Notes under the pieces: model-generated
Seen by the model: only the letters and a program-made list of their open reading frames with translations
Told to the model about the DNA's origin: nothing
The model's database searches: none
Source: Selaginella tamariscina
Taxonomy: Eukaryota > Streptophyta > Lycopodiopsida > Selaginellales > Selaginellaceae
Direction: 5' to 3'
Length of the DNA: 64,000 nucleotides
Assembly: GCA_003024785.1 (NCBI GenBank)
Contig: PUQB01000307.1
Span: forward strand, 186,001 to 250,000
Made by a program: the position numbers and the translations under genes
Shown: piece by piece, positions 2,761-45,851 of the stretch
How positions within the stretch are numbered: position 1 is the first letter of the stretch
Layout of the letters: each line of letters opens with the position of its first letter

Positions 2761-5640
<2,880 letters not shown>

Positions 5641-6013: not shown

Positions 6014-6055
<42 letters not shown>

Positions 6056-6135: not shown

Positions 6136-6185
<50 letters not shown>

Positions 6186-6250
6186 AAAGGGCACGTTTAT
6201 ATATATAGAGAGAGATGGTAAATATTTTAGACATTGATGTGAAATATAGA
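5945..6250. repeat. Partial tandem copies of the EGY3 3' end joined by TA/GA microsatellites
   Basis: Three related segments lie in a row: about 5950-6012, 6060-6137 and 6214-6300. Each contains a form of TGGTAAAT followed by the sequence around the EGY3 stop codon and last codons, and each is separated by a (TA)n(GA)n tract. The last one is the true end of EGY3. The arrangement suggests repeat-mediated local duplication of the gene tail. Upstream, 5650-5945 is ordinary AT-rich spacer with a short TG tract at 5910. Confidence 0.7.
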
Positions 6251-21368: not shown

Positions 21369-24300
21369 GCACTTCCTCCCTAAAGACGAGTTCCATAAGT
21401 CATGAGACTTGGTTTAGCAAGATAACGCCGATGAAAAGCAAAAGCATGGAGCAAATTGAATGTAGGTTCCCGAGTGCGATCAGTAGGCAAATAACCTTTT
21501 CCAATCCACCAAGTATTAAAGTTGGCGGCGATGAAGACAAGAATCAAGAATGGCTGCAACTTCGTACTCAAGTTCATCGTTAATGACTACAGAGAAAAAG
21601 CACGACCAGGAAGAGAAGAAGGATGATACGATTCTAACAAAGAAGTGTGAAACACAGGATGAAGTTTCATAATAGATAGTAGCTCTAGTTGGATTGACCT
21701 TAGCCACAATCATATAAGGGCCTAATCATTGAAAATCCAACTTAGAAGAAGGCTTGTTAGTGCGATTATGCCGACAAAGAAGCCACACAAAATCACCAAT
21801 CTTATATGCATGTGCCTGATGATGAGCATCACCATGATGCTTGTACCATTCCTGTGCTTGTTGAAGATAAACTTGGAGATCATCATGTACCTGACAAATA
21901 TGCTAGAGAGGATCCTGTACTGTAGGAGCTAAAGAAGGAGAAGCATGAGAGCAAAGCCAAAATGTAGATGGTAGCCTATAAGAGCGAAGGAAGGTGTCTG
22001 GCATGTAGATGCGTGAATGGAGTTGTTGTAAGCAAACTCCACCATAAGAAGAAGGTCCAACCAGTTGTCTTGTTGGTAATTGATGAAGCAGCAAAGATAC
22101 TGCTCCAAGGTCTGAATCATGTGTTTTGATTGCCCATCAGTTTGCCGATGATATCTTAAAGAAAGATCTGCTTTAACTTGTAGACTCCGAAGAAGCTCTC
22201 GCCAAAATCTGGACATGAATTTTGGGCCTTGATCAGAAACAATGCTCTTAGGAAGCCATGATATCAAAACACTTTGCGAATCACCAACTCAGCAGTTGTC
22301 TGGCCTGTAGCCGTCTTGGTACATAGTAGAAAATGAGCCTGTTTGGTGAAACGGTCAACCATCACAAGAACTGCATCAAATCCACGAGGAGGAAGATATG
22401 TGAAGAAATCCATAGAAATGGATCTCTAAGGAGCAGAGGGAACAAGAAAAGGACGAAGAATACCAGAGGGTGCGTGATGAGGCATCTTCGACCTGTTATA
22501 TGTGTCACAACTCCATACAAACCTTTCCATAAAACTTCACAACCCAAGCCACTAATAGTTGCGAGTCACCAACTCAATTGTCTTGGCCACACCAAAATGT
22601 TCTATAGCCGGGGTATCATGACAATCCTATACCATAAGAGTCCTGTAAACACCAACAAGAATGTACAAGAGACCTTCCCAGTATAGAAGTCCGAATAACT
22701 TGTTGTCTGTATGGGAATTGGGGAAAGAGGAGTTGCGATGTCAGAACTAATGTGTGAGAACACATTTTTTAACAAGTCATCTATAGCCAATTGCAAACGG
22801 ATGTCCTGTAGAAGTGTTGAATTTGCTGGAGCCTGATGAACCTATAGTGCCTCAAACCAAAATCAATCAGGACCCAACAACACTTACTTTTGATAGTCAT
22901 ATGTAGGATCGCCCAAGGTCGGTGGAAGGTAAGAGCGCCTAGACAATTACCATTTTGAAAACTAGGCTTGTAGATAATGACAAAATCAAAACATGATAGG
23001 AATTCCGCCCACCTAGCCAGTCGCCGACTGAGAACTCGAGCTGTTTGAAAAAACTCTAGGTTCTTGTGATTCGTAAGAACTTGTACAGGATGCGCAACAC
23101 CTTCCAGGAAGTGTCGCCACTCCTCAAACGAATTCACAATAGCCTTGAGTTCCTTGTCATGAATCTCGTAATTGATCTATGCTGAAAGGAACTTATAAGA
23201 GTGAAAGGCTACAAGATGAAGTAACTTGTCTTCTTCAACTTGTGATAGGATATAAACCTACTGCAAAGTTTGAAGCATTTGCTTTAACAAAGAAGAGCGA
23301 GAAGAATCAGGATGTATTAAAATTGGAGTTGTCTTAAAGGCGTACTTGAGTGCTGTGAATGCATGTTCCACCTTATCAGAGAAATCCCCTATGCGCTTGG
23401 TGAGTTCCGTGAGTGGAAGTACACGCTATATGAATTGCCTGTAGAAGTTTGCAAAGCCAAGAAAACATTGTATGTCTCGTACAAACTTGAGCCTCTCCCA
23501 CTTCACGATAGTCTTCACCTTGTGCATGTTCATGGAAACGCCAGCAGGAGAGACAATGTAGCCCAAGAACTCCACAGTATCCTTGTTGAAAAAACACTTC
23601 TCCAACTTCGCATACATGCCATGCTCATGAAGCTTTTGTAGAACTAGTCGTACATGCTTATCATGTGCCGCCTGGTCCTTGGAGAAAATCAAAATGTCAT
23701 CAAGGTAGATTACCACAAATTAGTCCAAGAAGTCACGAAAGATGTCATTCACTATGTGTTGGAACACGTCTGGGGCATTGGTAAGTCCGAAAGGCAACAC
23801 CGTGTGCTCGAAGTGTCTATACCTTGTATGAAAAGTAATATTCCACTCATCGCCTGGATGAATCCGTACAAGATTGTAAGCCCCTTGTAAGTTAATCTTC
23901 GTGAACACATTTGCTCCTTGTAGCCGATCGAGAAGTTCCGGAATCAATGGCAATGGGTACCGGTTCTGAATAGTGACTTAATTCAAACCTCTATAGTCCA
24001 CAACCAAACGTAAACTCTCATCTTTCTTCTTGACAAAGAAGATAGGTGCTTCTGCAGGGACATTGAGTGACGAATGAAGCCGGATGCTAAGTTTTCCTCA
24101 ATGTACTAACAAAGAACCTTCAATTCTATAGGTGACAGTGCATAAATCGGTTCGAACGGTGGAGTCTTTCCTTCCACAAGATCGATAGGACAGTCGTAGG
24201 ACCTGTGAACAGATTGAACTACAGCCTTGTGCTTGTCAAAAACATCCTGAAAGGAGTGATACTTGAATGGCAAGGAAGAAGGAGGAGAAGAAGAAGGAAC

Positions 24301-24520
24301 AATAAAAGGAGATTGAAAAAAACAGGGGAGTTAGATACAGGAAAGGTAAAAGAGGACGTAGGAGTTACTTGGAAGGTAAAAGATGAAAAGGAGCAGGATT
24401 AGTGGCAAGTTCATGCATGGTAGTGGTAAGAACTCGGAGAGGAGAAGAAATGAGCTGTGATTGAAAAAGAGGAAGGATCTTAAGGGGTGAAATAGAAGAA
24501 GAATAATGAAAAGAGGCAAG
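21369..24520 (-). pseudogene. Chromovirus pol (3' half of split element): RT, RNase H, integrase, chromodomain
   Basis: From right to left on the minus strand: end of the proline-rich linker (24520-24230), reverse transcriptase (24100-23430, with [20 protein letters not shown] and the catalytic YLDD in [13 protein letters not shown]), RNase H (about 23350-22930, with EEWRHFLEG and NHKNLEFF), integrase with the zinc-binding start (about 22700) and core (SDQGPKFMSRFW, RQTDGQSKH, 22267-21930), and a chromodomain (21600-21400). It is broken by many stops and frameshifts and is not functional. It joins the fragment at 40164-48201 once the 24525-40159 element is removed. Confidence 0.88.
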
Positions 24521-24524
24521 ATTG
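24521..24524. other. Target-site duplication ATTG, left copy
   Basis: The uninterrupted chromovirus linker (compare the plus-strand copy near 42640) contains a single ATTG at this point. Here ATTG precedes the left terminal repeat, and a second ATTG (40160-40163) follows the right one. A 4-bp duplication is therefore inferred. Confidence 0.75.
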
Positions 24525-24551
24525 ATGCAAGTTATAACTAAAATAGGCATG
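24525..24551 (+). repeat. Left terminal inverted repeat
   Basis: Outer bases ATGCAAGTTATAACTAAA, inner GGCATG. Pairs with 40133-40159 with four mismatches, all transitions except one. A second, shorter match (CCCATTTTC, 24560-24568) lies just inside each end, but in the same orientation rather than inverted. Confidence 0.75.
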
Positions 24552-25024
24552 GCTATAGTCCCATTTTCTAATAATTAGCAATTTTAGCTATTTAATTAGC
24601 ATTTTCTAATATTAAAGGAATATTCTTTAGAATATATGTTTGAAAAAAGAATATTCTTTAGAATATTCTATTTTGTATTCGACCCTTTAATAAATTATAG
24701 CATTCATTGAACAAAAATTAATAACATTATAAAAGTAGAAGTATTAAATTATATAATATATTGCCTAATATAACAATTAAGGAAGAGCATAAGAGGTACA
24801 TTATATAAATATTGATGTTGTTATTAAAATATTAATATTTAAATATAACATTATTAATTAAAAATTTGTAGTAGTAATAATATATATAAAAATCCTATAA
24901 TAATATAGTCAATCTTCCATATCTTTTTTAAATTTATATAGTTAAGTAACAATTTGGTACTATTATTAAAGAGTTTATAATTATGAATATTAAATATATG
25001 ATATTTTATAATTTTGTAATTGCT
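24552..25024. other. AT-rich left subterminal zone
   Basis: Very AT-rich, with palindromic GAATATTCTTTAGAATAT motifs at about 24626 and 24650. Similar GAATATTCC motifs lie near the right end (39965-39990) and in the interior AT-rich zones. No coding pattern. Confidence 0.6.
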
Positions 25025-28000
25025 TTAAGCTTCAGAAAACATACATTCCCTTGCAGTTTTGTTAATCGTGACTTTATCAACGCTTCTTGACATCCACCCA
25101 TATCGAATGGATTTAACATTTATAAAACATGCTGGGTCTTTTTGATTGGGAGACCATGTTTTCTCTAGGCATCCATTATATCTTTCGCTCTCCTTCTCGT
25201 GTCGCCTTTTTTGTGGTTTGAACCATGCAACCTTAACAATACTATTTTTTGTGATTACTTCAGGTGTGTCGATAATTTGACCCATCCAAATAGGCTGATT
25301 ATATGACGCATCTGGAGTAATGAGAACCATCATTAGTTTTTGAAGATCCTGCAGCAATCAAAGTATGCTTTAGGTTTTTGGTTCCTTTGTCCAACAAAGT
25401 GTGGGGTTTGCACTTCCACATCACTACTGGCTTCTATGTCGTCTGTGCTCAGTGATGTCATTTCAATCTCCTCTCGCCACCTTGTTTTAGGCCAAAAAGG
25501 GTGTTGCAATTCTGTACTTGTGACAGTAGGCCCTTCCAACTCTCGAACAACAGTCTCCCAATAGTGACCACATGCTTATATAGTTCTGAGTAACCAGTTG
25601 CCTTATCAGAATTCTTTGGCATCGATTTTTGAACCCATGCCACATATTTTTTGATGCCATCAATAATAACCTCTTGTTCCTTGAGCTGGGCACTCAATGG
25701 AATAGGGTCTGGTTGTCCTTCTGGGAGAAGTGGCTTTCCATCCTCTCCACTTTTGAAGAGCATTAAGCCCTCTTTCGGTAACCACTCCTGCTCTGATGGC
25801 CGTAACTTGTACTGCATAATAGGTATACCATCTCGTATGGAGAAAAAGAATTGTAGCGGCACAAGGTGACCAACTAAAGAATCACTCCCTTCTTTTATAT
25901 ACTCCTTGAGAAATTTTTTGAAGTCTGGCACCTCAGTCACAAGCAAAGCACAACTTTTTTTGGAGATGCAATTTTCAAAAAGATTCATCATATGCGGTAA
26001 GGTAAGTGCACTTGTCCTTTTTGTAGAGTTGGAGACCTTGCTGAAGAACGCATCAATATCTTCATGAGTGTGACCAACCATAAGGAAACTGAGCGTGATT
26101 GTTTCAAACACACCTTTGGCAACAAGCATTGACAAGTATGCTAGCACATATCTAGAAAATAAAAGTAAGTATGAGCTTGAGAAACCCTTAAGTAAAATGA
26201 TTTACCTATTTTTGTTCTCGCCTGCACAATTATCCATCTGTAAAAGCAAATGACGAGGAAGCTTATTTGATGTTGAGGACACATGTACACTATTTGAGCT
26301 AGATCCCTCCACTGAACCTGAACTCTCAACAGGGCCATCTGTTTTTTGTGCAGGTTGCTGACAATGCCTCTCATATTCCCAAGTAGCCTCAAGTGCAGAC
26401 GTGTTCATGAGAGCATTATGTAAAGGTTGAAGGTGTTGTTTCTTCACTTTGAGATCACTGATAGGACTTGTCTGTGAGTGGGCTTCAAGGTTTCTGAAAC
26501 ACATGGCTAACGACCCAATAGTGAAATTGGAGTCGCTAGACCAATGTGGAAGTGAAAAGTGTCCATATGACTCACAACCGTGTCCATGTGTTAGCACACC
26601 TGTCAATGAAATCGGAAGTTTCATGACATTTCCAAGGCACTTTGGTGTTGCAAAGAGCTTTGGAATGCTGGTCTTTGAATGATCCATCTTGTCATGGATC
26701 AAGCACAGGTACTCTGATGGGCGTGACACAGAAAGCATGCGGTGTGCATAGTACTGAGACCGGCAAGTTTGTTGTGCAATCATGTGGGCCTCCATCTTCT
26801 TTGAATGGTAGTGATCTCCACCAAGGTTTTTGCACAAGCCTCTGCAGCCTTCAATGATGTACAAGTGTCACACTTGGAAAAGCTAGAGTGTTTTGCAATC
26901 TCCACATCCTTAAAATGAGTATTCCATATGTTGTTGAAGGTACCAGTGCAGATTGCTTGAGCCCCATCAAACTGAGGCACTTGTTCACATGTTCACACAG
27001 CTTCAATTGAGTGTAGATTGAAGGCAAAACCTTGAGATTTTCCCTGACCCCTGCATTTGTGGTTCGGCATTTGTGAGGCATCCTGTCTGCATTTGCTTCC
27101 ACAAAAGCCTTGAGTATCTCTATGGCTGCCATAATGTGAGAGCGGGTTTTGACCAAGCGAGTGTTCCCATGTACTGAGGTTCGCGCTCCATCTAGCCACT
27201 CATCCCTCCGACGGTAGAACGTGGTCTTTGGGATCCCGTATATACTGTACCAAGCTTTGAAGCAGATGGCCACCTTATTAAATACCATGGATGTACTCTG
27301 ATAACCTGTGTCCGAGGCCATTCCATCAATACACCCAGTTAGTGCAGCATATACAAACTCATGCCTTTGCTTTTGGGTGAGTACGAAAGACATGTCTACA
27401 TTGGGTAATTTCATTCCGGTCTGCCATCTGACAACACTTCTTCTTGCAGCAGTCAATCGTGGAAATGCTCGTAACACTTTCGGAAGATGTAGGATCCATC
27501 TTACCCTCTTGCTGAAACTTGCAGGGGAAGATCTGCAACCCATGAATCGCCTTTTTCTTACAATAGGACCAATGCAAGGAACCTCTTCAAATATGAGTTG
27601 TTCTTCCGGGTTGTTATTATTGAAATCCAACCCAGAATATGTTGAACCATCTTGCCGTCTTAATTCAGATGTTCGCCACCTCACGAGGGATCCAGGATGC
27701 AATGTGCCATTAGGTGAAACCTCTGTCACAACTACACCCACGAAGTCGGACCCTAGTTTCTCTTCTGACACTGCTTCCATTGGATTTATAGCTGTGATGA
27801 TGCCTCTCCCAACCTCAATCTCATGAAGAAAGAGAATCACCTCATCCATCACAGCAGGCAAGCCATCATCTGGAAAACTCGTGCTACTGTTTGTTTGTGA
27901 CTCTGCATATTCTGTGTCAGCCTTGACTTCATCCAAATTCCACAATACAGGAGAACCCTCCTCAAATTCCATTCCCAGAACCTCAACATGCTTGAAAATG

Positions 28001-28141
28001 GTGTTCACCCATACGTACACACAAGATCCTTGGCAATATTGTGACATGATGCATTATCATCTCGAACTTCCACAGTTCCAGTGCCAACTATCTCGTTGTT
28101 CCGAAGAAGACATACTTTATCTCCAGTATTATACATATTGT
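25025..28141 (-). CDS. DUF7869-like protein, candidate transposase of the 15.6 kb element
   Basis: Begins after a TGTGCAG acceptor at 28142 (DNMYNTGDKVCLLRNNE), so an upstream start exon is missing or lies beyond. The long open frame 28047-26851 carries an N-terminal region of unknown type and a helix-turn-helix-like phrase (GIPKTTFYRRRDEW). A cysteine pair (KCDTC) follows, and then the DUF7869 core: LLQMDNCAGENKNR (26240-26206), a 54-bp intron (26205-26152), and YVLAYLSMLVAKG then FLMVGHTHEDIDAFFSKVS. The conserved Asp-Asn and GHTHEDID residues suggest a metal-dependent nuclease-like site, but no activity is established. The tail runs to MFSEA at 25025. Frame shifts of one base occur near 28020, 26970, 26850, 25550 and 25350. 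Total about 950 residues. Family assignment is from remembered motifs, function is inference. Confidence 0.7.
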
Positions 28142-28279
28142 CCTGCACATAAATAATTGTTATTTATGATATCTGTTTATGCAATATTTCTAAGAAATCT
28201 GAATTGCGGTTGCTTAATAATATGCATGTACAATAATACATAATTATGTATAGATAATATCCCATGCTTTATTAATACA

Positions 28280-29040
28280 ACTGATGGGTGGGATTAATCC
28301 CGCCCATGACTCCCTCCGACGAGGAATGATGGGCAGGATTAATCCGCTGCCAACTGTACCCCTTTGGAGTGAGCCAGCGGGATTAATCCCGCCGACGAAG
28401 CTGCCCCTTCGGAGAGACTTGGCGGGATTAATCCCGCTGCTAATTCCCACCGCGATGAAGAATCAGCGGGATTAATCCCGCCATCGGATCTTCCTCATCG
28501 GAGAGAGGTGGGATTAATCCCGCCACGGACTCCCTCCGACAAGGAAGAAGCGGCGGGATTAATCCCGCCCCCAGATCTTCCTCGTCGGAGATAGGCAACG
28601 GAATTAATCCTGCCGCAAATCCCTCCGACGAGGAAGAGGGGGTAGGATTAATCCCGTCCACAACTCTGACGACGGGGAATAGGCTGCGAGATTAATCCGC
28701 CCACAACTCTCTCCGAAGCTATGATTTCAAAAAAGATCTCGGGATGAATCCTGCCCACAAATATTTAAAACATGGAAGTGGTGGTGAGATTAATCCCGCC
28801 ACACCTTCTCTACCTCCTAAAATGGTTGGCGAGATTAATCCTGTAGATAACTCTTCTAATAAATTCATGTAACTCTTATCAGTTGAGAGAGTTATCGGCG
28901 GGATTAATCCTGCCGCTCTTTTAAAAGGCGGAGAAGCATTGCCGGACTAATTTTGCCATAACTATTAAAGAGATGGTGGTGGGATTAATCCTGCCACCTC
29001 TTCGAAAGGCAAAAAAAATGGCCAGATTATCTCGCCGCCC
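28280..29040. repeat. Palindrome array 1: about 17 copies of GGCGGGATTAATCCCGCC
   Basis: Copies of the 18-bp palindrome, perfect or with a few changes, occur near 28293, 28335, 28378, 28422, 28466, 28509, 28553, 28600, 28643, 28687, 28740, 28785, 28829, 28898, 28943, 28978 and 29015. Spacing is mostly 42-45 bp. Spacers carry a second palindromic theme (TCCGACGAGGA and its complement TCCTCGTCGGA). Copies decay towards the right. The array lies 140 bp upstream of the DUF7869-like gene. Open frames through it encode GGINPA or AGLIPP on both strands and are not genes. Confidence 0.92.
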
Positions 29041-29213
29041 GGCTAACCGAGAATATTAAGTTAGAAGTATATTTAAATGGAATAAATCCCTAACAGAATA
29101 TATTGTAATCCTAATGCATTCCTAAACCCCTAAATTGTAAAATTTGAGAGAGAATGTAAGAGAGTGAATCTTTATAAATATATCTAAATTTGTTTATAAT
29201 ACTTGTAAACAGC

Positions 29214-30916
29214 TGTCATAGTTTTTACTATGACTCCTCTTTACTTTGGATGTTGACTGTTGTTACCTACTATACTATATTGACAAGTCTTAGATGTAGT
29301 GAGAAACAGCCCCGCTTAATGCACTTAGGTGTTTAGGGATAGTCGGTCGGCTGTCCTTAGATATCGCGAAACTCTTAATCGAAGGTAGCACTTACCTTTT
29401 AGAAAACTCTTACCCTCATTTTTCGTGTCCCAGTTGGATTAATGGCTAGTTCCGGTGAGTTCGGCATGTCGGATATGCTTAGAAATACCCCAAGTTGACA
29501 AGTTAGGGTTTAGGGGTTGATGGATAACTCACCAAGTATGTTCCCTTTGGGAATGAGATTTCAGTGCTAGCCCACTTATGTAAATAGGAAAACAGGGGGG
29601 GCTCTATCACATAAATAAAAGTAGTATATAGGAGTGAGGGTTCCTGGGTTCATGACTGAGCTCGTTACTCTTCTCCCAGTGCAAGCTTTAGCTTGTGTCG
29701 TCAAGGCACAACCCTCTGTTGTGCCGCCCTAACTTCCAGTTGCTAGGGGTACGTCCCACCTTCGAGGTAGCTTACCCTTAACGTTGGCAAATCCATGCCT
29801 GGGAGGTCTTGTGAGAATGCACGTTCCAAGATGCAGAGGTAGAGGCTTGTCTCCAGCCTCCTCCTCCATGTCAAGCTAGGTGTAGCATCACGACCAAGCA
29901 AGGCACATCCGTGTCCTTGTCCAACTGTGGGCGTGGGATCTTGTTTGACAGGTTCACATTACCAGTTCCTGAGGGTTCACTAAGGGTTTCTAGAGTTGGC
30001 ATTTAGGAGCCACGTTTGTGGCACTTGGTGCAACTCTTGAATCTAAGGGCTATGGTATGATAGCCCACATCGAGGGAGGCAGTGTCACATGGAGATGTGA
30101 CACTGGGCTAAACGTCACATGGTACAACGCTCGAGGCACGCCCTTAGGTTATGTCATAGGCTTGTCGCCAAAGGGTTGGATACTTTAGCAAACAGACATG
30201 CTTGTGCTTACACTAGGGTGCTAAGCCTTGGGCATTCGCTCAAGGGAGGTTAGGTCTCATAACTATGTGTGCTTTGGCACACTTGGCTAGGGGAGTGTTC
30301 TCCTTGGAATTCAAGGGTTGAACAACCTAAGCATGTTAGCAGGAGCCCTTTCGTGAGGCACTCGCAAGGTCATGTGCTTAGGGTTATCCCAAACCTAGCC
30401 TTAGGGAGTTTGCTTAGCAGAACACTCGTGTCCGCCTACGGCGCACACTCGTGTCCTTACTAAGTACTAGCCTAGGTCTAGGGTATGACTTGGCCACTCA
30501 AACCCTTAGGGGTTAGTCATGGTTTAGGGTACCCCTTGTCCTAAAGGGGTTGTACTCCCAGATAAGGGTGATTTCTTAAGGGGTAAGTGACGATGCCTTA
30601 GCTCTGTTATGAGGGTATGTGTGGAACACACGTCTCCTTGATGAGGGTTAGGGCATGAGCCTGTCTAGGTCTTCTAGGGCAAGACCCTAAGTCAACTAGG
30701 GTTATCCCTCAAGGGTTTTGGGGGTAGACACTCTAGGGAGACTTAGGCTAAACCCTAAGTCAACTAGGGTTATCCCTCAAGGGTTTTGGGGGCAGACATT
30801 CTAGGGAGACTTAAGCTAAACCCTAAGTCTCATGTCCACTTGGGCATTAGAGTTTAACCCTAGGGGTCGTTGGGTTGTTTTGGGAAACTTAGCATTGCTC
30901 ACACAGGGTGATGACA
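29214..30916 (+). mobile_element. 1.7 kb LTR plus primer-binding region, inserted in the 15.6 kb element
   Basis: Starts TGTCATAG and ends ATGACA. Same family as 11860-14585 but with the 1.1 kb unit present once. Homology to the other copy continues about 25 bp past the end (GGCCACC, GCAGCCACGTG), so this is a 5' LTR with a truncated internal region rather than a clean solo LTR. The flanks (ACAGC left, CGAAT right) give no target duplication, in agreement with truncation. A short duplicated block (CCCTAAGTCAACTAGGGTTATCCCTCAAGGG-like) occurs at 30688-30715 and 30752-30783. Region 29041-29213 is plain AT-rich DNA. Confidence 0.7.
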
Positions 30917-30941
30917 CGAATGGCCACCTAGCAGCCACGTG

Positions 30942-31360
30942 TTGCAATTTAATGTCACTCCTGAGCTGATCACTAAGAAGAACAAAGAAAATCTGAAAAG
31001 TGAAAAATAAAGAAATGAAGAAACTTTATCGGAGAAAGAACCAGATCTGAATTTGAATAGGAAATTAAATGCATTTTCAAATTTACATGTCAGACCGACA
31101 ATACTTATGTCAGAAATTCGAAATTTTTGAAAATAACAAAAAGAAAATTTAAGATGAATTGAAACAAATAACCGACAGTCTGACATATATACTCTCTAAT
31201 TCTAATGAGTGTTTTAAAATTGCATTTAAAGTTGTTTAAATTACGAAATTTTTGTAATTATTCTATATTCTTAATATTCAAGTATATATTATTAAGTTTA
31301 TATTTATATATATATATATACTAATCCAATAAATAAATTGAAATATTATTATGTATCATT
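30942..31360. other. Non-coding stretch after the LTR
   Basis: AT-rich with a TATATA run at 31305. A 95-codon minus-strand open frame (31186-30899) is Phe/Ser-rich and has no recognisable domain. Nothing else is visible. Confidence 0.4.
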
Positions 31361-31364
31361 TAAA

Positions 31365-32060
31365 ATATTCATAGTCTGTTTATTATTATTTTTTCTTAAT
31401 TACTCGAGTAATTAATTTACATTTCCTACTATTAATGGGATATTCTTTATTATTTTCTTAATATTCAAAGAATATTCCAGTATTAAACCTGATTATCATA
31501 ATTAAATTAGTCTTATTCTTAATTATCTCAGTAATTATTCTACATTTGTAATATAATGGATTTTCTCAATTAATTTGTTATTATTTCAAGAATATTCCTA
31601 TGTTAAACCTTATTATCAATATTAAATTAATATATATTATTAAAACTATATATGACTATATATTAGATAAAATGATGTATTATTATGTATATTTAAAATA
31701 TGTTCATAGTGTGTATATTAATATCATTTTCTTAATTACTTGAGTAATTAATCTTCTTTATATTAATGGGATATTCTTATTATTTTCTTATTATTCCAAG
31801 AATATTTCAATATTAAACATGATTATCATAATTAATTTAGTTAATTATTTCAGTACTTAATCTACATTGTATATATTAATGGGATTTTCTCAATTAATTT
31901 CTTATTATTTCAAATATTCCAATGTTAAACCTTATTATCAATATTAAATTAATATTATATTAAAACTATATATGGCTATATATTAAATAAAATCATATTA
32001 TTATGTATAATTTAAATATGTTCATAGTTGTTTATTAATATTATTTTTCTTAATTATTCG
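31365..32060. repeat. AT-rich tandem repeat, unit about 330 bp
   Basis: The block ATTCATAGT..TTATTA..TTTTCTTAATTACT-AGTAATTAAT..TTAATGGGATATTCTT recurs at about 31365, 31700 and 32020. Within each unit a shorter version (AAGAATATTCC, TTAAACCT-ATTATCA) is itself doubled. About two full units and a partial third. Confidence 0.7.
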
Positions 32061-32264
32061 ATGTTTGTTTTGCACACATATATAAACACAATCATAAATT
32101 TATATATACACGTGCACCGCATTAAAAGTACTTACAGAGACAATATGCACACACATGCACATTGCCCTAAACCAAACTTGAGAAATTATATGTTGCTTCT
32201 TATTGAAAAACATCATGTTCAACGCATGTATGATTTATATGTATCAGTCTATGTGTATATAACA

Positions 32265-32960
32265 TATTGAATTTACACATGTAATATATATGTATGTCTG
32301 TGTGTATACATGTGTGTATGTATATATGTTACTAATATATGCAATGTGTACGATTTTCATTTGTTAACACTCTCTCTTCCTCATACATACATAGTGTCAC
32401 ATGCATAATCCCCTTTCATACATACACATCATGCATGATCATGATCCATAATATGTAGCCTGTCTCTTTCTCTACAAACACCATGCATGATCCATAATAT
32501 GTACTGATGTTACAATATTATGTACTATGTATGTATATCTGTTATATATGTGTATGTATATATGTGTACTAATATATGCAATGCATACAAAATTAATTTT
32601 TTAACACTCACTCCTCTCATACATACAACCATACATGATCCATCATAACCCTAAACCCTAAACCCTATGTAACACATTGAATTTACACATGTAATATGTA
32701 TGTATGTCTATGTGTATACACGTGTGTATGTATATATGTGTACTAATATATGCAATGTGTATGAATTTAATTTGTCAACATTCTCTCTTTTCTCTCATAC
32801 ATACACACCATGCATGATCCATGTTAATATGTACTGTCTCTCTTCTCTCAAACATACACACCATGCATGATCTATAATATGTATTGTCTCTCTTCTCTCA
32901 TACATACACACCATGCATGATCCATAATATGTACTATGTCTCTTAATATTAATATGTACA
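32265..32960. repeat. Tandem TG/TA-rich repeats including an interstitial telomere-like repeat
   Basis: A unit beginning ACA-ATTGAATTTACACATGTAATAT and running through TGTATGTCTGTGTGTATACATG to a CATGCATGATC block occurs at about 32265 and 32667, with partial copies between. From 32795 to 32945 a 48-60 bp unit (TCTCATACATACACACCATGCATGATCC-type) is repeated about three times. At 32647-32666 there are nearly three copies of the plant telomere unit CCCTAAA. Confidence 0.75.
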
Positions 32961-33239
32961 TATGTATGTATGTTTATGTGTATAATAATGTGTGTATATA
33001 TGTATCGCTGCACATGAAACTTTAACATTCTCATGGACACACACATGTTAAACCCCTGCATGATTTTATTCTTGGGGTGTATGTGATACACCCACGCACA
33101 CACACACATTGATAATATAATGAAAGAATATTTGTTTAGGGCGAATCTCTTTTTAAGGTTTAAGTATATTCTTAAAAGGAATATTCAATTAAGGTTAATA
33201 ATATTCTATTTCTTTTAGGTTTAGGTATATTCCTAGGGT

Positions 33240-33473
33240 TTCAAGAAGTAAGGCGGCAGAGGCGCGGCTGTGAGATCTCTCTCTCACACACAGGTGAGAT
33301 CTCTCTCTCTCTCTCACGCACATTCCTGAGTTTATTTATTTATTTTTATTCACATATATATTTATATGTTGTGTATCTTAATAATATAATTTAAATCTCT
33401 ATCTCTCGCACACACACGCACACTCGTATACATATACACACAAGATATATATATATATATTATATATATATAT

Positions 33474-33513
<40 letters not shown>

Positions 33514-33737
33514 GTGTTTGTGTTGTGTATAATTTTATTAATTTATTAATTTTATCTCTTGCACATGCACACACACTCCTGTTTATTTGTATGATTTTAT
33601 TTGTTTCACTCACACACACATACTCACGATATACATATACACACACACACACATATATATATACATACATATATTATGTGTACCAGTATCTGTATAATTC
33701 TTTTTATTTATCTATCTCTTGCCACACACGCACATCC

Positions 33738-33814
<77 letters not shown>

Positions 33815-34245
33815 TTGTATTAATTTTATTGATTTGTTAATTGTATCTCTCGCACACAACGCACACTCCTGTATATATATGTGTGTGTGTGTGTGTTGTT
33901 TTCTGTATGATTTTATTTTTTCACACACGCATACACACGATATACATATACACACACACATATATATTACCTATGTACATATATACATACATATATTATG
34001 TGTACCAGTATCTGTATAATTTTATTTATTTATTTATCTCTCGCACACACACGCACACTCCTGTATATACATATACATAAATATACATAATATACATAAT
34101 ATACATATACATATACATATATATATACATATATATGTGTGTGTATGTGTGTGTGTATGTGTCAGTATAATTTTATCAAATTTGTCTATCTCTGGCACAC
34201 ACACGCACTCTCCTACATACACATATACATATAGATATATATATG
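33240..34245. repeat. Satellite built from microsatellites, unit about 170-200 bp
   Basis: The series TATCTCTCGCACACACGCACACTCCTGTATA, a TG tract, GTATGATTTTATT, CACACACGATATACATATACAC and TATTATGTGTACCAGTATCTG is repeated about five or six times with differing tract lengths. Pure TG tracts are at 33475-33512 and 33782-33812. It explains several long Cys/Val- and His/Thr-rich open frames. Confidence 0.85.
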
Positions 34246-34249
34246 TGTG

Positions 34250-35135
34250 TAGCGGCGGGATTAATCCCGCCGCCCTTCAGGCAGGCTATTTAGTTAGCCT
34301 CATGAGCGGCGGGATTAATCTCGCCGCCTATGCATGCTCTGCACGGAATTTGGCGGATTTATTCTGCTGCTAATGGCCTGTTCAAAGGGTCTAGGTGGCG
34401 GGATTATCCCGCTGGATTCCGCGCAGGGCATGGGCATCTGGCAGGATTAATCCCGCCGCCCATGGCCTACATGTTGGGCCTAGACGGCGGGATTAATCCA
34501 TCGCGTACGCATGCCTTGCGCGGAATCTGGCGGGATTTATCCCGCCGCCAAAGGCCTGTCTGAAGGGCCTAGGCAACGGGATTAATCCCGCCGAATTCCG
34601 CACAGGGCATGGGAGTGCGGCGGGATTAATCCCGCCGAATTCCACAAGGCATGCATGGGCGGCGGGATTAATCCGCCGAACACCCATGCCATGTGCGAAA
34701 TCCGACGAGATTAATCCGCGCACATGCCTGCGGGAAGGGCCTGGGCGACAGGATTAATCACGCCGAGCCTTCAATGCATGGTGGAGGGATGAATCCCGCC
34801 ACCCTTCTTTTTTCCTCCATTGGTGAGTCGGACCAATCCCAAACGTTTCTGTCTGAGACGAAGAAGGTTTATAACATACCAATGGAGGGGACTGAAAAGG
34901 GTGGCGAGATTCATTTCACCATCTCTTACATGGTGAGCGAGATTAATCCCGCCGCCTTTCTGGAGCCCCTGAAGGGGTGTGGCCAAATAAATCCTGCCCA
35001 ATTCTTTCTGAGATTGAGAAGGGTGGCGGGATTAATCCCGCACACCCTTTCAAGGCCTCTAAAAAGGTGGCGAGATTAATCCCGCCCACTCTTTCAGGAG
35101 CATTGAAGGGGTGGCGAGATTAATCCCGCGCACCT
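34250..35135. repeat. Palindrome array 2: about 19 copies of GGCGGGATTAATCCCGCC
   Basis: Copies near 34255, 34309, 34354, 34398, 34441, 34486, 34529, 34576, 34620, 34662, 34706, 34748, 34788, 34905, 34937, 34983, 35027, 35068 and 35113, mostly 42-45 bp apart. In the left half the spacers alternate between GCATGC..GCGCGGAAT and GGCCTG..AAGGGCCTAGG types and their complements. In the right half they resemble those at the far end of array 1 (CTTTC..GGGG). Core palindrome conserved, spacers diverged but patterned. The array lies about 300 bp upstream of the methyltransferase-like gene. Confidence 0.92.
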
Positions 35136-35245
35136 TCCATGTGAATATATATGTGTATTAGTATATATAAGTTGCATATCTCATTTTATTTACTTTTATC
35201 ATCTTATCATAATATTTCAAGTAAAACTAGGAATCTATATAAAAT

Positions 35246-35326
35246 TGTCCAAAGCTCACATTTGTGGTGGTTTAAAAACAAAATGTTATCTTTCTTTTGC
35301 ACTAGCACAAATGTGAGCTTTGGACA
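35246..35326. ncRNA. Perfect 21-bp stem hairpin (possible small-RNA precursor or regulatory stem-loop)
   Basis: TGTCCAAAGCTCACATTTGTG at 35246-35266 (21 nt, shown here as seen without its partner) is perfectly complementary to 35306-35326, with a 39-nt loop. The perfect stem of miRNA-like length stands out in otherwise degenerate surroundings, between palindrome array 2 and the first exon of the methyltransferase-like gene. It could be a small-RNA hairpin, a young inverted duplication or a transcript stem-loop. Expression cannot be judged. Confidence 0.4.
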
Positions 35327-35431
35327 GTTAATTCCGTCCACTTTTCTCTGTGTATTATTTTTGTATATTCGGGTTTATACAAGTGTGTGTGCGTTTTTAT
35401 ATGATTTGTATTCATAGTGTATTATTTGCAG

Positions 35432-38400
35432 AAGGACGATTTAATTAAACAAGGAGATCAAGTCATTAGTATAGAGTCGTCGTCAACTTCTGGGTAAGAA
35501 TTAAAATAAATCTGTATACTCATATATGTGCTTAAAGAAATAATCGTTTTTGTATTCAGATGTGGAATTGAGGTGACATTAAAGATGAGAGCAGGAGAAG
35601 AGATGGGCAAGGGGATTCTGGAATTAACTTGGCCATATTTCAAAACTAAACGGGAAGCGCATTGGAACAACCATGGTTGCTATCAACTAACCTTTGTCAC
35701 ATCACATGGACAAGCAAAACAATGGAAAGTGGGTATGTTAGTCAAGCATCCAAAAGCATGCTGTGAACCCAAATTGAACGATGCTCAACACATATGCCTT
35801 GTTCCATCTAATGTCATGTTCTCGGATCCAGAGGTCGCCATTTACAACATTAATTTCGGGTGGTCTTGTCGACTCATGAATAATGACGTTCACGTCTTCA
35901 CTAATGATGTTGACCATTGGAGTTCTTCTTCAACTCAACGAAAGCCCATCTATGGAGGGATCCAACTGGATGTCTACTTCGAAGATCTTCATACTCATCG
36001 AATAAGTGTATTCTCAGTAGAGATTGCTTCACAATACAGAAAATTCACAAGTGGAGCAATCATCCTCTTCACATTGAAGAAGAACACAACGACATCATAA
36101 GGAGATTGAGAGGGTGGCTCGGTCTCAGGTTCTTTACATCACGTTCAATTTACTTAGAAAATTTTGGGAGCTGGAAGAGTGTGTCGAAAACATTAGAACA
36201 ACATTCAATCGGGGATCACACATGTTGATTTAGATCGTAGAAGAAAATCCTCGATCGTTTTGTCAATTGCACCTGTGGCATCCCATGTTACAATAAGCCA
36301 CAAGGAAATGATGTTGAATGATAGGATTTACAAGTGTAGGGTTAAGTATTGCAGCGTGAAGCCCAACTTCAAACTTCAATTACAGGCCACTCAATCAAGA
36401 ACGTGTAGCTGAGCTCATGGAGAAGATGAAGGACAACAATTCTTATACTGTTTCACATATAATGCTGTTTGTGTCCATACTACGAGAGAACAAAGGTGCT
36501 GACAAAATGTGGATCTCAACACTAAACAAATGAGGAAGATTCAGACGGAGAATAGAAATCATATCAAGTACTACATCATTATTGGCTAGCACACAATAAT
36601 GGTAGCCCAATGACTTCTCGAGGAACACAACAAAGAAAGTACCATAATTTATCGGCGGAATGGGATGCGCAGACACCAACCACTACAACAGCAAAATATG
36701 GAGAAGTTCAAACACACGCGAGCCGTGTGGGAATTCTCTTCAGCGACCACAAAGAGCTATCATAGGGAATACACAATCTGTGGACTACTGGGTAAGCAAA
36801 TTGTTTGGGTGGGATTTATCTTGCCAATATATTAATTCTGTCTTTTTTTTTTCCAGAAAGTTGAAGAAATTGTAGCAGTTGATTTTGCCAGGTGGGTGAG
36901 AAGGAAACATCCTTTTGATGATGTGATTTCTTGTCTCGAGGATGGGATCTTTGCCAAATGGTTGGGGATTATGGAATCCTTTGCAAAGGAATACTGAAAG
37001 AAGAAGCAGACAAGTGAAGGGAGCCCTCAGAAAGTCTGCAAAGAAACCCAGTAAGACGCCGAAGGCTAAGTCTGTTCAAATAAAGGATGTAGACAACGAT
37101 TTCAAGCTCACATGGTTGAAGCCTTTAAATGGAACAACGATGGAGGAGATGGAAGTCTTGGCTGATTTGGTGATTGATGGCAAATTACAGATTAACAACA
37201 GCAGCCCCACCTCTCCTTTTCATCTCAAGGCAATGGAGTTGAAGACGGTCAGGCACTTCAAGGAGTGGTTGGGAATACACTGCCACAAACTGGGTTGGAC
37301 CTCGGCTTCAACATATGAAGAGGTCAGCAAATATTTGCATGTGACAAACGATGATATGCTTGTCGAATGGGTGAATCAATCGGAAGATCTGGGCAAGAAT
37401 CTATTGCACGCCAACGCCAAAAAGGAGAACATTGGATGACGCCTTCTCTTATGGCAGTCCTTCAGCAGGAGAACCGAGTTGAACCTTATAAAGGAGGATG
37501 CTACGAATCACGACAAGCCCTACAGATGTTTGTTGTTGGATTCGGAGACTTTATGGGGTACCATCACTGCTTGTAGGAAACCGTTTCAATTGTTCGTGAT
37601 GGATCGGGGGTGTCAAAAAATCCTTCGACAGACAGGACACTAGAGGATTTGGTGGAGAAACTTAGCCGTGCAAGCATGTACAAAGAAGGTATTTATTATT
37701 GAATTCATACTTGCACTCTTGACTGATATCTACTTTTCAGGTATTTATTTCTTGATTCTTGCTCATGTCACCGATACCTTTGCCTTCGCCTTTGCCAAGA
37801 GAATAAACATCGTTGGACAGGATTTTATATGAATGATGCTGATCCGAAGTGCATTGATTCGGTTGTTCACTTGGTTGTTAGGAATGCGCCAAACAATTTC
37901 AAACTTCCAAATGACTGGCCAGGCATCTGTTTGCACTCCAACGGCCCTGAACCTCCATCCGATACACCGATAGCTAGAGTGACGTATTCGGCAATGTACG
38001 TTATCCAAACATTACAAGTCAAGCGGCACGGAGCATCGTCAACTTGATCAGGGGTCCTCACAGTGATGCGTGGGTTTTTGACTACTGCACTAGGGGGTCC
38101 GTCTTGAAGGAGTGTTACCTTCGGATACATGTGTGTTTGCCGTTGAAAAGGATAAGACCATGGTTGAGGACCTGAACAAGTGGATAGAGAGGTTCTCAAC
38201 TGACTACCCCAACAAACCCATAAGGAGTATTTGAGAAAGTTCCCTCCGATAAGTGCGATAGCTCTGAAGACGAATCTGGTTCAATGTCGGAGTCTGAGGA
38301 CGAACTTCAATCAGATATTAGACCGGAAGTTATCTCGAGGAGTACAGAACATTCACACACTCCATTACCCATGGAAACATCAAAAGAAGATACAAAGATC

Positions 38401-38472
38401 TTGAACCATCTCACAAGCGGCTTAGACCTTCTTCGCCTCACTCAGAAGGTAATAGCGAAGAAGAATTGTTAA
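35432..38472 (+). CDS. Multi-exon gene of the 15.6 kb element; 3' half resembles a beta-class DNA methyltransferase
   Basis: First visible exon 35432 to about 35492, then 35560-36230. These read GKGILELTWPYFKTKREAHW and FGWSCRLMNNDVHVF, which I do not recognise. At 36382-36470 RPLNQERVAELMEKMKDNN weakly recalls a ParB-like start. Exon from 36857: VEEIVAVDFARWVRRKHPFDD, then a Lys-rich linker and KTVRHFKEWLG (to 37437). About 37500-37690 gives PYRCLLLDSETLWG and FQLFVMD, a possible but incomplete motif IV. After an intron (to 37739): YFLILAHVTDTFAFAFAKR, APNNFKLPNDWPG, TYSAMYVIQTLQ and WVFDYCTRGSVLKECYL followed by CVFAVEKDKTMVEDLNKW. The last two look like motif I (VLDPFxGSGT..) and the following acidic ligand (GxExD). 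Motif IV before motif I is the beta-class order found in ParB-linked bacterial and phage methylases. An acidic tail ends at 38472. Several frameshifts mean it may be inactive. The start codon was not identified. Confidence 0.4.
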
Positions 38473-38725
38473 TGAGTTCTTAGAGTGACGAATAGTTGTA
38501 AATGAGTGTAACATAAGGCATTTTTGTATATTTTTTATATTTGTACAGAAAATAAATTCTCAAGGATTAATGAAGCTTTTAGTTCAAACATGGGTCACAC
38601 ATTAACAAGGTAAATAATATACCTTGATAATTTTAAGGTCAGCTAATTATCATTTTGCAGATGTAATGAAACATTGAGAACATGGATTTTCAGCATTGTG
38701 CAGGTAAGAGATTTGGCGAAATTTC

Positions 38726-39655
38726 TTGTGCCACATGTCAATGACAGAGTTCATGCAGGAAATGGATAATAATGCAGCTCAAAACATCGTTACCATGGGG
38801 CCACTTCAGTTTTTTCATCATCATTTTTATTGGCTTCAGTTCCGAAATCAATTTCTTCAGCATGCAATATCTGAATCTTGTAAGGATGATGTACAATTAA
38901 ATGATGAAGGGATAGGCAACGAGATAGTGCAAGATAAATGTGAAAGGGAGCAAACAAGTGATTTGCAAAGTATTCAAGAGGCAACGCTATCCATGTTACT
39001 CATGGCCATATTGTGTTGTTGGATGTCAATGGTGTTCTGCTTCATCGACAAAGGCCCGAGGATAGGAAAAAAGAAATCAAACAAGGAGATTTCATTCCTT
39101 GTCATGGTAAATTTCGATATGATATTATTTTTCGTCCAGGGTTGGATCGTCTCTTTCAAAAGCTTAAGGAGATGGGTGCGCTTGTGGGGATTTGGTCATG
39201 CATGCAGATTCAAACTTAACACCGCTGTTTGCTTAAGAAACATTGTAGTGTTGCAGAAGAGGTGATTCGTAAAGATTGGATTTTTGACCACGATATGTTT
39301 ATAAACCTCTCGAATTTCACAATATAAAAAGGAAAGCAAGCCATACTTCTTCAAGAATGAAAGAATAATTGGGACTCATGGGGAGATCAGTCGCTTAAGG
39401 ATAAAGAACGCACAGATTAGTGGTAGACGACTCTCCTCAGAAGGCTATGCTCAACCAAAACATTGCTTGTATTCATCCAATCACTTTCGATCCATATTCT
39501 GATACCGATATCATGGATGAGCTAGTGAACTACTTGGATACGTGCCTCAGAAAGAAGAATCTCGAAAATTTTTGTGAGCAGTATCCACCGTATCAACATT
39601 TCCTGAAGCTTTTCTTTCTCGTGATTTTGAATTTTATAAAATGAAGGATAGCAAC
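38726..39655 (+). CDS. FCP1/NIF-type HAD phosphatase-like gene (frameshifted)
   Basis: An N-terminal region of about 90 residues (MSMTEFMQEMDNNAAQNIV) is followed, one base out of frame, by HIVLLDVNGVLLHRQRP (39000-39060), the HAD nucleophile motif I in the DxNGxL form used by FCP1/NIF phosphatases. FRPGLDRLFQKLKEMGALVG and IWSCM follow (motif II region, WSxxM). After further indels come KHCSVAEEVI and KDWIFDHDM, then VVDDSPQKAMLNQN (39423-39465), which is motif IV (VDDSP). The tail includes YPPYQHFLKLF. Members of this family dephosphorylate Ser/Thr in proteins such as RNA polymerase II. At least three frame breaks suggest either errors or decay. It is the last gene before the right end of the element. 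Confidence 0.6.
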
Positions 39656-39839
39656 CGGGCGCTTTATAATATTATTCTTAAGGAACGTCATTTTTAGATG
39701 AGCCTTTATGCAGACCTTCTCTTATCACATCTTATGTATTAACAAGGATGGCAACTCCCAATTGCATTCGTGAGAGTGTTAAGTGGTGGCAACAACATCA
39801 AGATATTGACCAAAATGATTCGATTAATCCAAAATGAGA

Positions 39840-40132
39840 AGATTTCTTTGTATGATAGGAAGAAAGTATTTATAAAAAAATTAACATTGATAAGAAATGA
39901 TTTCATTTGTAATTATGTTTGATAGTATTTTTAATTATTGTAAACTATTTTTAGAATAATATGAATATTCTAAGATATTTTAGGAATATTCCTTACTAAG
40001 TAAGGTTATTGAAGGATTAATTATTAATTAATTAATATTTAAGGCTTAATTACATATTAATTAAATGATTAATTAATAATTAAAACTTAAGTATTAATTA
40101 GTAATTTATTTTATATTCCCATTTTCACGTAT
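39840..40132. other. AT-rich right subterminal zone
   Basis: Dense TTAATTAA-type motifs at 40015-40100 and GAATATTCC at 39980. Includes CCCATTTTC at 40118-40126, also found just inside the left end. No coding pattern. Confidence 0.6.
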
Positions 40133-40159
40133 CATGCCCACTTTAGTTACAACGTGCAT
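40133..40159 (-). repeat. Right terminal inverted repeat
   Basis: Plus strand begins CATGCCCACTTTAG and ends ACAACGTGCAT; its complement matches 24525-24551 at 23 of 27 positions. Directly followed by the ATTG duplication at 40160-40163. Confidence 0.75.
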
Positions 40160-40163
40160 ATTG

Positions 40164-41606: not shown

Positions 41607-44600
41607 ATGGCTAATTTTGAGCGTTTTCAACGCAAGCACCAAATGTTACTTTCATGAGTTCCTGCACCACCTTCTGGAGTAGTTCCTATGGAGGTTGAGA
41701 AATCCAAACGTGGCTCTCTTTCGCTGCTGAGAAGCAACGTCGCCGCAGTGAGAACCTATGCTTGTATTGTGGTGAAGTAGGACACAAGGTGGCAGAATGT
41801 CCTATTAAAGCCAAGAAGTTCAAGACGCGTGAAGTTGAAGCTGAAGTCCAATCGAAAAACTTCAATGTTCACTTCGTCTAGGGCCGCGAAGTTGGGCATA
41901 GGTGCAGGCTCCATTGGTGCTGCTCATACCATTCCATCACTTAAGTTTCCTGTACACATTCATCTTAATAATCGAGAGCTCATGGAGTTTGCTTTGTTAG
42001 ACATTGGTGCAAATGCATGCTTCATGGATGACACTTTTGCAACTCAACATGGCATTTCGGTGGTGAAGTTGAAGCGTGCAGTTCCTGTAAAGGTGGCCGA
42101 TGGGCGTCTGATTGCTTCTGGCGCAGTTACCCATGCTACCGAACCTTTCTCCTACAGTTATGGCACATTCAACTGTTCAATTTTCTTCAACTTGATCAAG
42201 ACTCGGTCGACTCCCATCATTTTGGGCATGCCATGGTTTTTTGTTGCAAATCCGCAGATCGACTGGAGGTCTAGGACGCTCACATTTTCCTCTCCGACAG
42301 CTAGGATCAATCCTGTACCTTCTTGTGTGTAGGATACATCCTTAATATCTGAGGCAATACAAGCTACAGGATTGACCGTGCCTAATCTTGTACCAGTGTT
42401 GAAGACTCCTCCTCGACAGGATTCACCTCATGTCAGTTCCTTAACACATCGCAGGCTCTCTCCACTCCTATAAGTTTGTGTTTTCCTATACATGGCTGTA
42501 TCAGTGTCGAAGGTTCCTCCTCAACAGGATCCACCTCATGTTGACTCGTCAGCACATTCGCAGGCTTTCCCCACTCTTGCGCAACCACGGACTCCTGTAC
42601 AGGATTTTTTCAATCTTGTACACTCGTCAATATCCACACAGGTTTTTTCCAATCCTGCCTCTTTCTGTTACCCTGCTTTTGTTCCACCCCCCAAGATTCT
42701 TCTCTTTTTCAGTCACAGCTTCTCCTCCTCTCTGAGTTCTTACCACTACCATGCATGAACTCGCCACTGATCCTGCTCCTTTTCACCCTTTTGCCTTTCA
42801 AGTAACTCCTACGTCCTCTTCTACCTTTCTGTATCCGACTCTCCTATTTTTCAATCTCTTTCTCCTACTCCTTCTCCTTCTCCTTCTCCTCCTTCTTCCC
42901 TACCATCCAAGTATCACGCCTTTAAGGACGTTTTTGACAAGCACAAGGCTGCAGTTCTTCCTGTTCACAGGTCCTATGACTGTCCTATTGATTTGCGGAA
43001 GGAAAGACTCCACCGTTCGGACCGATTTATGCATTGTCACCCACAGAGTTGGAGGTTCTTCGTCAGTACATCGAGGACAACTTGGCATCCGGCTTCATTC
43101 GTCACTCAAAGTCCCCTGCAGGAGCCTATCTTCTTTGTCAAGAAGAAGGATGGGAGTTTACGTTTGGTTGTGGACTACAGGGGTTTGAATCAAGTCACCA
43201 TTCGGAATCGGTACCCGTTGCCATTGATCCCGGAACTTCTCGATCGGCTGCGAGGAGCAAAGGTGTTCACGAAGATCGACTTACGAGGGGCCTACAACCT
43301 TGTACGGATTCGTCCAGGCGATGAGTGGAAGACTGCCTTTCGTACAAGGTATGGACACTTCGAGTACACGGTGATGCCTTTCGGCCTTACCAATGCCCCA
43401 GCCGTGTTCCAACACATGGTGAACGACATCTTTCGTGACTTCTTGGACCAGTTTGTGGTGATCTACCTCGACGACATTTTGATTTTCTCCAAGGACCAGG
43501 CGGCACATGACAAGCATGTACGATTAGTTCTAGAGCGGCTTCGCGAGCATGGCCTGTACGCGAAGTTGGAGAAGTGTTTTTTCGATAGGGATTCGTGGAG
43601 TTCTTGGGCTACATCGTCTCTCCTGCTGGCGTTTCCATGGACATGCACAAGGTGAAGACCATCGTGGAGTGGGAGAGGCCCAAGTCTGTACGAGATGTAC
43701 AATGTTTCCTTGGCTTTGCAAACTTCTACAGGCGGTTCATACAGGACTTCTCCAAGCGTGTACTTCCACTCACGAACTCACCAAGCGCACAGGTTTTCTC
43801 TTGGTCCGACAAGGCGGAACATGCATTCACAACACTCAAGGACGCCTTCACGACAGCTCCGATTTTAGCACATCCTGACCCTTCTCATCCTTTCTTCATT
43901 GAAGCAGATGCCTCGGATTTTGCAGTAGGATCCGTCCTATCACAAGTTGGAGAAGACAAGTTGCTTCATCCTGTAGCTTTTCACTCTCGTAAGTTCCTTT
44001 CGGCGGAGATCAATTACGAGATTCATGACAAGGAACTCAAGGCCATTGTGGATTCGTTCGAGGAGTGGCGGCATTTCCTGGAAGGTGCTGCACATCCTGT
44101 ACAAGTTCTTACGGATCACAAGAACCTGGAGTATTTCAAACGGCTCGAGTTCTCAGTCGGCGACAGGCTAGGTGGGCAGTTCCTATCACGTTTTGATTTC
44201 GTCATCGTCTACAGGCCCGGTTTTCGGAATGGCAAGGCGGACGCATTGTCTAGGCGCTCTTACCTTGCACCAAGCCCGGGCGATCCTGCATATGACTGTC
44301 AAAGGCAAGTGTTGTTGGGTCCTGATCGATTCCGGCTTGCGGCACTACAGGTTCATCAGGCTCCAGCAAATTCAACACTCCTACAGGACGTCCGTTCGCA
44401 GTTGGCTACAGACGACTTGGCAAAGAATGTGTTCTCACACATTCATCCTGACGTTGCAAGTTCCTCTTCCTCCAGTTCCCGTTCAGACTACAAGTTGTTC
44501 ACCATACAGGATGGACTCCTGTACCGGGAAGGTCTCCTGTACGTTCCTGTTGGTATTTCCAGGACTCGTGTGGTACAGGATTGTCATGATACCCCGGCTA

Positions 44601-45850: not shown

Positions 45851-45851
45851 C

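Follow-up and report, generated by a model that had tools for sequence, protein, structure and literature searches.

A high-copy transposon family of Selaginella tamariscina with a probable DUF7869 transposase, a divergent second gene and palindrome arrays

We analysed a 64,000-nucleotide stretch of the Selaginella tamariscina genome (assembly GCA_003024785.1, contig PUQB01000307.1, positions 186,001 to 250,000 of the forward strand; the window, numbered here from its first letter), which contains a 15,635-bp element (24525-40159) inside a Ty3 chromovirus. Copy number, clean ends, target-site duplications and empty sites show that the element is a real, high-copy cut-and-paste transposon; the first-pass annotation of the window had proposed a transposon. 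The family was probably active recently. We suggest with high confidence that this is a cut-and-paste family with a DUF7869 protein as the predicted transposase, a D-D-D/E site, a divergently transcribed second gene and a palindrome array; Sola is the most likely superfamily. The boundaries of the insertion are the following.

24521-24524, no strand: left target-site duplication, ATTG (flank letters and joined-flank alignment)
24525-24551, plus strand: left terminal inverted repeat (TIR), 27 bp (also found by the genome-wide pattern)
40133-40159, minus strand: right TIR, 27 bp, identical to the left one at 23 of 27 positions (also found by the genome-wide pattern)
40160-40163, no strand: right target-site duplication, ATTG (flank letters and joined-flank alignment)
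42496-42835, minus strand: uninterrupted retroelement copy, the empty site (alignment to the joined flanks)

The element starts with ATGCAAGTTATAACTAAAATAGGCATG at its 5' end and carries the inverted copy ATGCACGTTGTAACTAAAGTGGGCATG at the other end (23/27 matching), so that the termini are ATGCA and the outermost letters AT..AT. Direct reading of the sequence showed the boundaries, the 27-bp repeats and the flanking ATTG to be exactly as first annotated. The Pfam scan of the flank frames detected the reverse transcriptase, RNase H, integrase and chromodomain of the surrounding chromovirus. The flanks, joined at one ATTG, align without a gap through the joint to the chromovirus copy at 42835-42496 (84% identity). 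Of 2,612 first-look candidates in the genome, the best 40 were scored against the joined flanks; every one of these crosses the joint with 90-92% identity, 38 of them over the full 500 nt, and the joint holds a single ATTG in six of the six genome copies of the uninterrupted chromovirus that were inspected. The earlier claim that both flanks are one chromovirus, with one ATTG when uninterrupted, is thereby supported, and the empty site whose absence would have spoken against a transposon is present. The two chromovirus copies of the window (41930-45879 and 21341-24524) are inverted to each other and 85% identical over 3.2 kb; one of them is cut by the transposon.

The host assembly (300.7 Mb, 1,391 contigs) was searched with a degenerate pattern of the 27-bp TIR, allowing up to two mismatches; an Lhcb gene of the host indicates a green plant, though not which lineage. 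We detected 4,157 matches genome-wide (2,139 plus 2,018), against none for the reversed-pattern control, so a second locus with these ends is not lacking. The left terminal kilobase is present in at least 39 further places with 98-99% identity, of which 38 begin within 12 bases of the position corresponding to 24525 and one is truncated; one partial inverted match (89%) was also found. The right terminal kilobase recurs in at least 39 further places with 93-95% identity, and in 36 of these the match stops no more than about 6 bases from 40159. Both counts are lower bounds from the best 40 of 2,292 (left) and the best 40 of 3,392 (right) candidates. The first 100 listed TIR matches form 37 neighbour pairs at up to 20 kb, with 20 inward, 10 outward and 7 same-strand. 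Eighteen of the inward pairs span 10.2-15.4 kb and 15 of them 13.5-15.4 kb. Forty of these 100 ends lie in complete-looking pairs, the remainder being solitary, far apart or at contig ends, which scales up to approximately 800 complete-looking elements, an estimated 4% of the genome; the upper figure would be 2,000 elements and a tenth of the genome, if most ends belonged to whole copies. Ten outward pairs among 37 suggest that the elements frequently lie close to one another, and five of the ten are 13-17 kb apart.

Twenty facing pairs, some spanning 22-48 kb, were fetched for the target-site test proposed in the first-pass annotation. Exact 4-bp flank duplications were detected in ten (TAGA, CTAT, ATAA, TGGT, CGTT, AAGA, ATTA, TTAT, TATC and GTAG) and none of the pairs matched at 5-10 bp, while shuffled pairs gave a mean of 0.6 and a maximum of 5 duplications of 4 bp.

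The DUF7869 gene of the window element is organised as follows.

26202-28163, minus strand: exon 1 region of the putative transposase gene, with the MD and LQMDN..ENKN motifs at its end (open reading frames, Pfam, copy C84)
26152-26205, minus strand: GT-AG intron of 54 nt, inside the DUF7869 domain (counted on the sequence)
25025-26151, minus strand: exon 2 region with the GHTHEDID motif and the C-terminus (open reading frames, Pfam, copy C84)

The annotation as DUF7869 is confirmed by Pfam (PF25273), with matches in the minus-strand frames 26202-26867 and 25458-26201. In another host copy, C84 (L087), this gene consists of two long open frames joined across the 54-nt GT-AG intron and encodes 1,021 aa from the first Met. 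The DUF7869 profile search of the host, with the best 150 of 4,249 candidates scored, gave 300 matches, all of those listed being above the Pfam cut-off, and six loci picked from them were all copies of the window element family. Variant sites common to at least two sequences were counted by codon position. Two DUF7869 exon stretches (13 copies and the window) gave 3/1/14 for positions 1/2/3; the terminal non-coding stretches gave 1/1/0 (left) and 1/2/2 (right; 30 copies), and the phosphatase of the same element 2/0/5 (31 copies).

The spliced protein has 65 homologues in the protein database, among them proteins of Physcomitrium patens, Riccia sorocarpa (four entries), Exaiptasia, Mytilus, Mya, Glandiceps and Holothuria; a protein search with just the first exon piece gave no match. 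The conserved acidic columns of the 65-row alignment number only seven (the residue in at least 90% of the rows having one, in columns filled in at least 50 rows), and they fall in three motifs, (I/V)(I/M)xDKMDQ, LQ(L/M)DN..(E/D)NKN and GHTH(E/D)DIDxxFS. D676 is present in 65/65 rows and D515 in 62/64, position 518 is D in 62/64 and E in 1/64, position 715 is E or D in 65/65, and D716 and D718 are each found in 64/65. Hydrophobic stretches precede motifs 1 and 2, and motif 3 follows motif 2 by about 40 residues; such stretches and such spacing are expected of a D-D-D/E transposase core, which the conserved acidic motifs appear to fit.

An independent DUF7869 element was detected outside the host. 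Two scans of viral contigs found no relatives. When bacterial and archaeal genome contigs were scanned once with the DUF7869 alignment, nine relatives were obtained, six of which (L096-L101) are contigs of a metagenome-assembled genome (MAG) labelled Trichormus sp. Trichormus azollae, a cyanobacterium, lives in the fern Azolla. These six contigs are probably DNA of the host fern, because of the label, which is the genus of the Azolla symbiont, and the introns in the second gene of the elements (293-318 nt, whose last letters are AG, GT standing at or directly beside the exon end). The remaining matches, in L102 and L103 (Bacteroidetes MAGs) and L095 (cyanobacterial MAG), are perhaps eukaryotic contamination. 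L101 contains a complete element at 391-8114 (7.7 kb), with 33-nt TIRs (26/33 matching) and an exact AACA on both sides, which aligns end to end with L096:4642-12446 (72%). Each of L097-L100 has one recognisable element end; a search for TIRs plus duplication on four of the Azolla-type contigs matched L101 only, and L097 and L099 had no recognised left end. The DUF7869 frame of L101 is open over 873 aa (Pfam 3.7e-51), contains the motifs IDGMDQ, LDNTAREN and GHTHDHID, and is 22-33% identical to the protein of the window family over the aligned parts. Since so distant an element shares the pattern of inverted ends plus a 4-bp duplication, L101 appears to be the strongest evidence tying DUF7869 to mobility. 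Based on the motif conservation, the codon-position bias and this independent element, we suggest that DUF7869 is very likely the transposase, a claim of the first-pass annotation that is well supported at the sequence level. This would provide a likely function for an uncharacterised Pfam domain whose occurrence extends from a moss and a liverwort to a sea anemone, molluscs and a sea cucumber, and it suggests that such DUF7869 genes are better annotated as transposable elements than as host genes.

The first annotation had recognised no described superfamily, which is probably wrong. On circumstantial grounds the element probably belongs to the Sola superfamily, as judged from published descriptions and not from Sola sequences. 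Sola elements are described as having a DDD transposase, a 4-bp duplication, TIRs of 11-1124 bp and sizes mostly of 2-9 kb, with some above 15 kb, and as present in the moss Physcomitrella (PMC10741241), for which Sola1 is also tabulated (PMC9033089). Azolla is reported to have more SOLA elements than Salvinia (PMC6786969), and dictyostelid Sola2 has AT-rich 4-bp duplications (PMC3627910). Our families resemble Sola1/Sola2 in having an exact 4-bp duplication (10 of 20 pairs), variable short TIRs (27 and 33 bp) and sizes of 15.6 and 7.7 kb. As to a putative DDD triad, D515/D518, D676 and D716/D718 are conserved, but E715 is conserved too. The methyltransferase second gene, the palindrome arrays and the NIF gene described below are absent from the Sola descriptions consulted.

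That the DUF7869 elements form a separate eukaryotic superfamily, different from Sola and from all others described, we consider rather unlikely. It would be consistent with the lack of sequence kinship to any named transposase in Pfam, NCBIfam, PHROGs or PDB (the NCBIfam and PHROGs searches gave nothing useful), with a literature search that found no paper naming DUF7869, and with the ATGCA termini and the methyltransferase partner, which the superfamily descriptions consulted do not contain. However, the 4-bp duplication, sizes above 15 kb, occurrence in moss and D-D-D-compatible motifs all fit Sola as reviewed. SOLA elements are reportedly more numerous in Azolla than in Salvinia (PMC6786969), and the DUF7869 elements came from MAG contigs of the genus of the Azolla symbiont.

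Other superfamilies disagree in the ends or the target. CACTA/EnSpm has CACTA/G termini and a 3-bp duplication (PMC10741241), against ATGCA and 4 bp here. Mutator (MULE) elements duplicate 7-12 bp according to the same review, against no pair exact at 5-10 bp. Ginger is described there with a gypsy-like integrase and TG..CA ends; 20 frames of the element and C84 contain no rve domain, and the termini are AT..AT. The TTAA target of Kolobok and piggyBac is replaced by TAGA, CTAT, CGTT and other duplications. The KDZ (Kyakuja-Dileera-Zisupton) transposons, which carry TET/JBP genes, are similar in being large eukaryotic DNA transposons linked to a DNA-modification gene, but no KDZ Pfam match was obtained in the scans made, and the linked enzyme of the Azolla-type elements is of CcrM type. 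The Sola2-Fanzor elements of dictyostelids share AT-rich 4-bp duplications, 12-21 bp TIRs and an accessory gene beside the transposase, which in the published description is a TnpB-like protein and not a methyltransferase (PMC3627910).

The rest of the window element comprises the second gene, two palindrome arrays and a phosphatase gene.

28291-28991, no strand: palindrome array 1, GCGGGATTAATCCCGC type (palindrome search)
34258-35038, no strand: palindrome array 2, with the same palindrome GCGGGATTAATCCCGC (palindrome search)
35510-38483, plus strand: second gene in several frames, with N-terminal, ParB-like and (unproven) methyltransferase-like stretches (open reading frames, pairwise comparison)
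38962-39644, plus strand: NIF/FCP1-type HAD phosphatase in several frames (open reading frames, Pfam)

The layout is common to both families, with the transposase gene and the second gene diverging and GC-rich palindromes between them; in the window element the transposase gene runs leftward and the second gene rightward. The second gene of L101 lies on the opposite strand, diverging from the transposase gene, and its last part matches N6_N4_Mtase (PF01555) with E 4.1e-8 in one exon frame and 4.3e-14 with the exons joined, the joined match covering profile positions 136-219 of 221. The best solved relative of this domain in a profile search is CcrM (7.9e-6), and the catalytic/AdoMet motifs IADIPYGF and LDLFSGTG were read by eye. 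We suggest that the Azolla-type second gene contains a predicted CcrM-type N6-adenine/N4-cytosine DNA methyltransferase domain. The PF01555 scan was made on L101, to which L096 is 95% identical in the methyltransferase region. The second gene is present in 4/4 Azolla-type contigs reaching its region (67-77% identical to L101 over the first long frame), and the part matching the methyltransferase profile in both complete elements, the other two contigs ending before it. The first part of the L101 gene has a stretch that, by eye, we take to be ParB-like (the I.GGSHSAEARRQL stretch of the second gene); ParB family profiles matched the second gene of neither the window nor L101.

The second gene of the window family shares an N-terminal stretch with the transposase of its own family (pairwise E 3e-5) and the ParB-like stretch with L101 (weak pairwise E 0.001 and 0.0033). 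The methyltransferase-like protein of the first-pass annotation is confirmed in the window by no profile: the gene had no match to PF01555 at E 10, the methyltransferase half had no detectable match to the L101 gene, and the stitched right-arm protein had none in the database search. The methyltransferase-plus-palindrome module is seen clearly, as a prediction, only in the Azolla-type elements, and it is the part likely to surprise a specialist.

The palindromes of the window family are GCGGGATTAATCCCGC and longer forms, 28 in C84 including a one-base variant (about 43 bp apart where dense) and ten in the window copy by the same counting rule. Those of the Azolla group are of the GTCGATGCnnnGCATCGAC types, ten in L099 (about 51 bp apart) and fewer elsewhere; shuffled sequences contain on average 0.2-1.7 palindromes of any kind. 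The palindrome sequence differs between the families while the position between the genes is kept, and we propose that the second protein may bind or methylate the palindromes.

The HAD phosphatase-like protein is confirmed by Pfam, as the joined pieces match NIF with E 7e-10 across nearly the whole profile. No NIF match was found in the nine DUF7869 loci of the bacterial/archaeal contig scan, so it appears to be cargo belonging to the window family. The second gene and the palindromes might likewise be suspected to be chance cargo without a shared function, given that the NIF gene shows that cargo can be gained, that the methyltransferase half of the window gene shows no detectable similarity to the fern gene and that other host repeats also carry N6_N4_Mtase domains. 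This seems doubtful to us, since both families have the same divergent layout with arrays between the genes, the second gene is present in each of the four Azolla-type contigs extending that far, and the ParB-like stretches match weakly between the families.

A different high-copy host repeat carries an N6_N4_Mtase domain, all listed matches being above the cut-off (best 150 of 739 candidates). Five of six fetched loci (L104-L108) are one repeat, ending soon after the frame in CCAAAATGGCG(G/A)CACTC. It was rejected as a second DUF7869 family, as the 10 kb upstream of the one copy examined contained no DUF7869; the upstream frames there look Mutator-like, by eye only.

Several observations weigh against a DUF7869-driven family as proposed here. 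The genes of the window copy are broken, with both DUF7869 exon regions in several frames, and 43 and 32 deleted bases in the two exon stretches over 13 copies indicate that some copies are decayed. Ten of the 20 fetched pairs lack an exact 4-bp duplication, which might reflect the pairing of ends from separate elements, recombination or decay; copy C768, collinear with the window element over both arms, is flanked by CTAG/CTAA, and L096, the other complete element of Azolla type, has TIRs without an exact duplication. In the last motif of L101, H takes the place of D716, an acid conserved among the 65 homologues. DUF7869 has no detectable sequence kinship to any solved transposase, the profile search of PDB sequences giving only three gp41 chains (E 0.07-0.08), taken as noise. 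No match to the second gene of the window came from Pfam, PDB or the database search; its frames are broken and the exon model is uncertain.

That DUF7869 is a passenger, with another protein (e.g., that of the second gene) acting as the transposase or the activity supplied in trans, is very improbable. The window element does have three genes, in a copy that is no longer intact, but DUF7869 is the profile-confirmed gene common to both independent families with TIRs and a 4-bp duplication, has the acidic motifs and the third-position bias, and the second gene carries a predicted methyltransferase domain in the Azolla-type lineage.

With DUF7869 as the probable transposase, the protein would bind the 27-bp TIRs, and IIHDKMD, LQ(L/M)DN..(E/D)NKN and GHTHEDID would form the D-D-D/E active site with their putative catalytic acids. 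The DUF7869 protein would excise the element and reinsert it where the target is cut with a 4-bp stagger. The predicted methyltransferase of the Azolla-type second gene would probably mark the DNA of the element itself or the arrays, controlling transcription, silencing or transposition.

A broader and more speculative reading, which we regard as improbable, is that DUF7869 elements are a eukaryote-wide group (plants, cnidarians, molluscs, echinoderms and a hemichordate) that in plants has its own bacterial-type N6A/N4C methyltransferase and a family-specific array for self-encoded epigenetic control. The array would then be the binding target of the ParB-like part, and the methyltransferase part would put a mark on the element that is unlike host 5mC. 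If the methyltransferase and array were general, N6A or N4C methylation in plants would have a testable source in these elements, which would also be a case of a eukaryotic transposon marking its own DNA.

Two further features were detected in the window. The left flank contains a tandem duplication at 12281-14460 (1.1 kb, 91% identity), and a short frame at 3432-3881 matches Piezo_TM1-24 (4.6e-6, slightly under the Pfam cut-off) and is perhaps a host Piezo exon.

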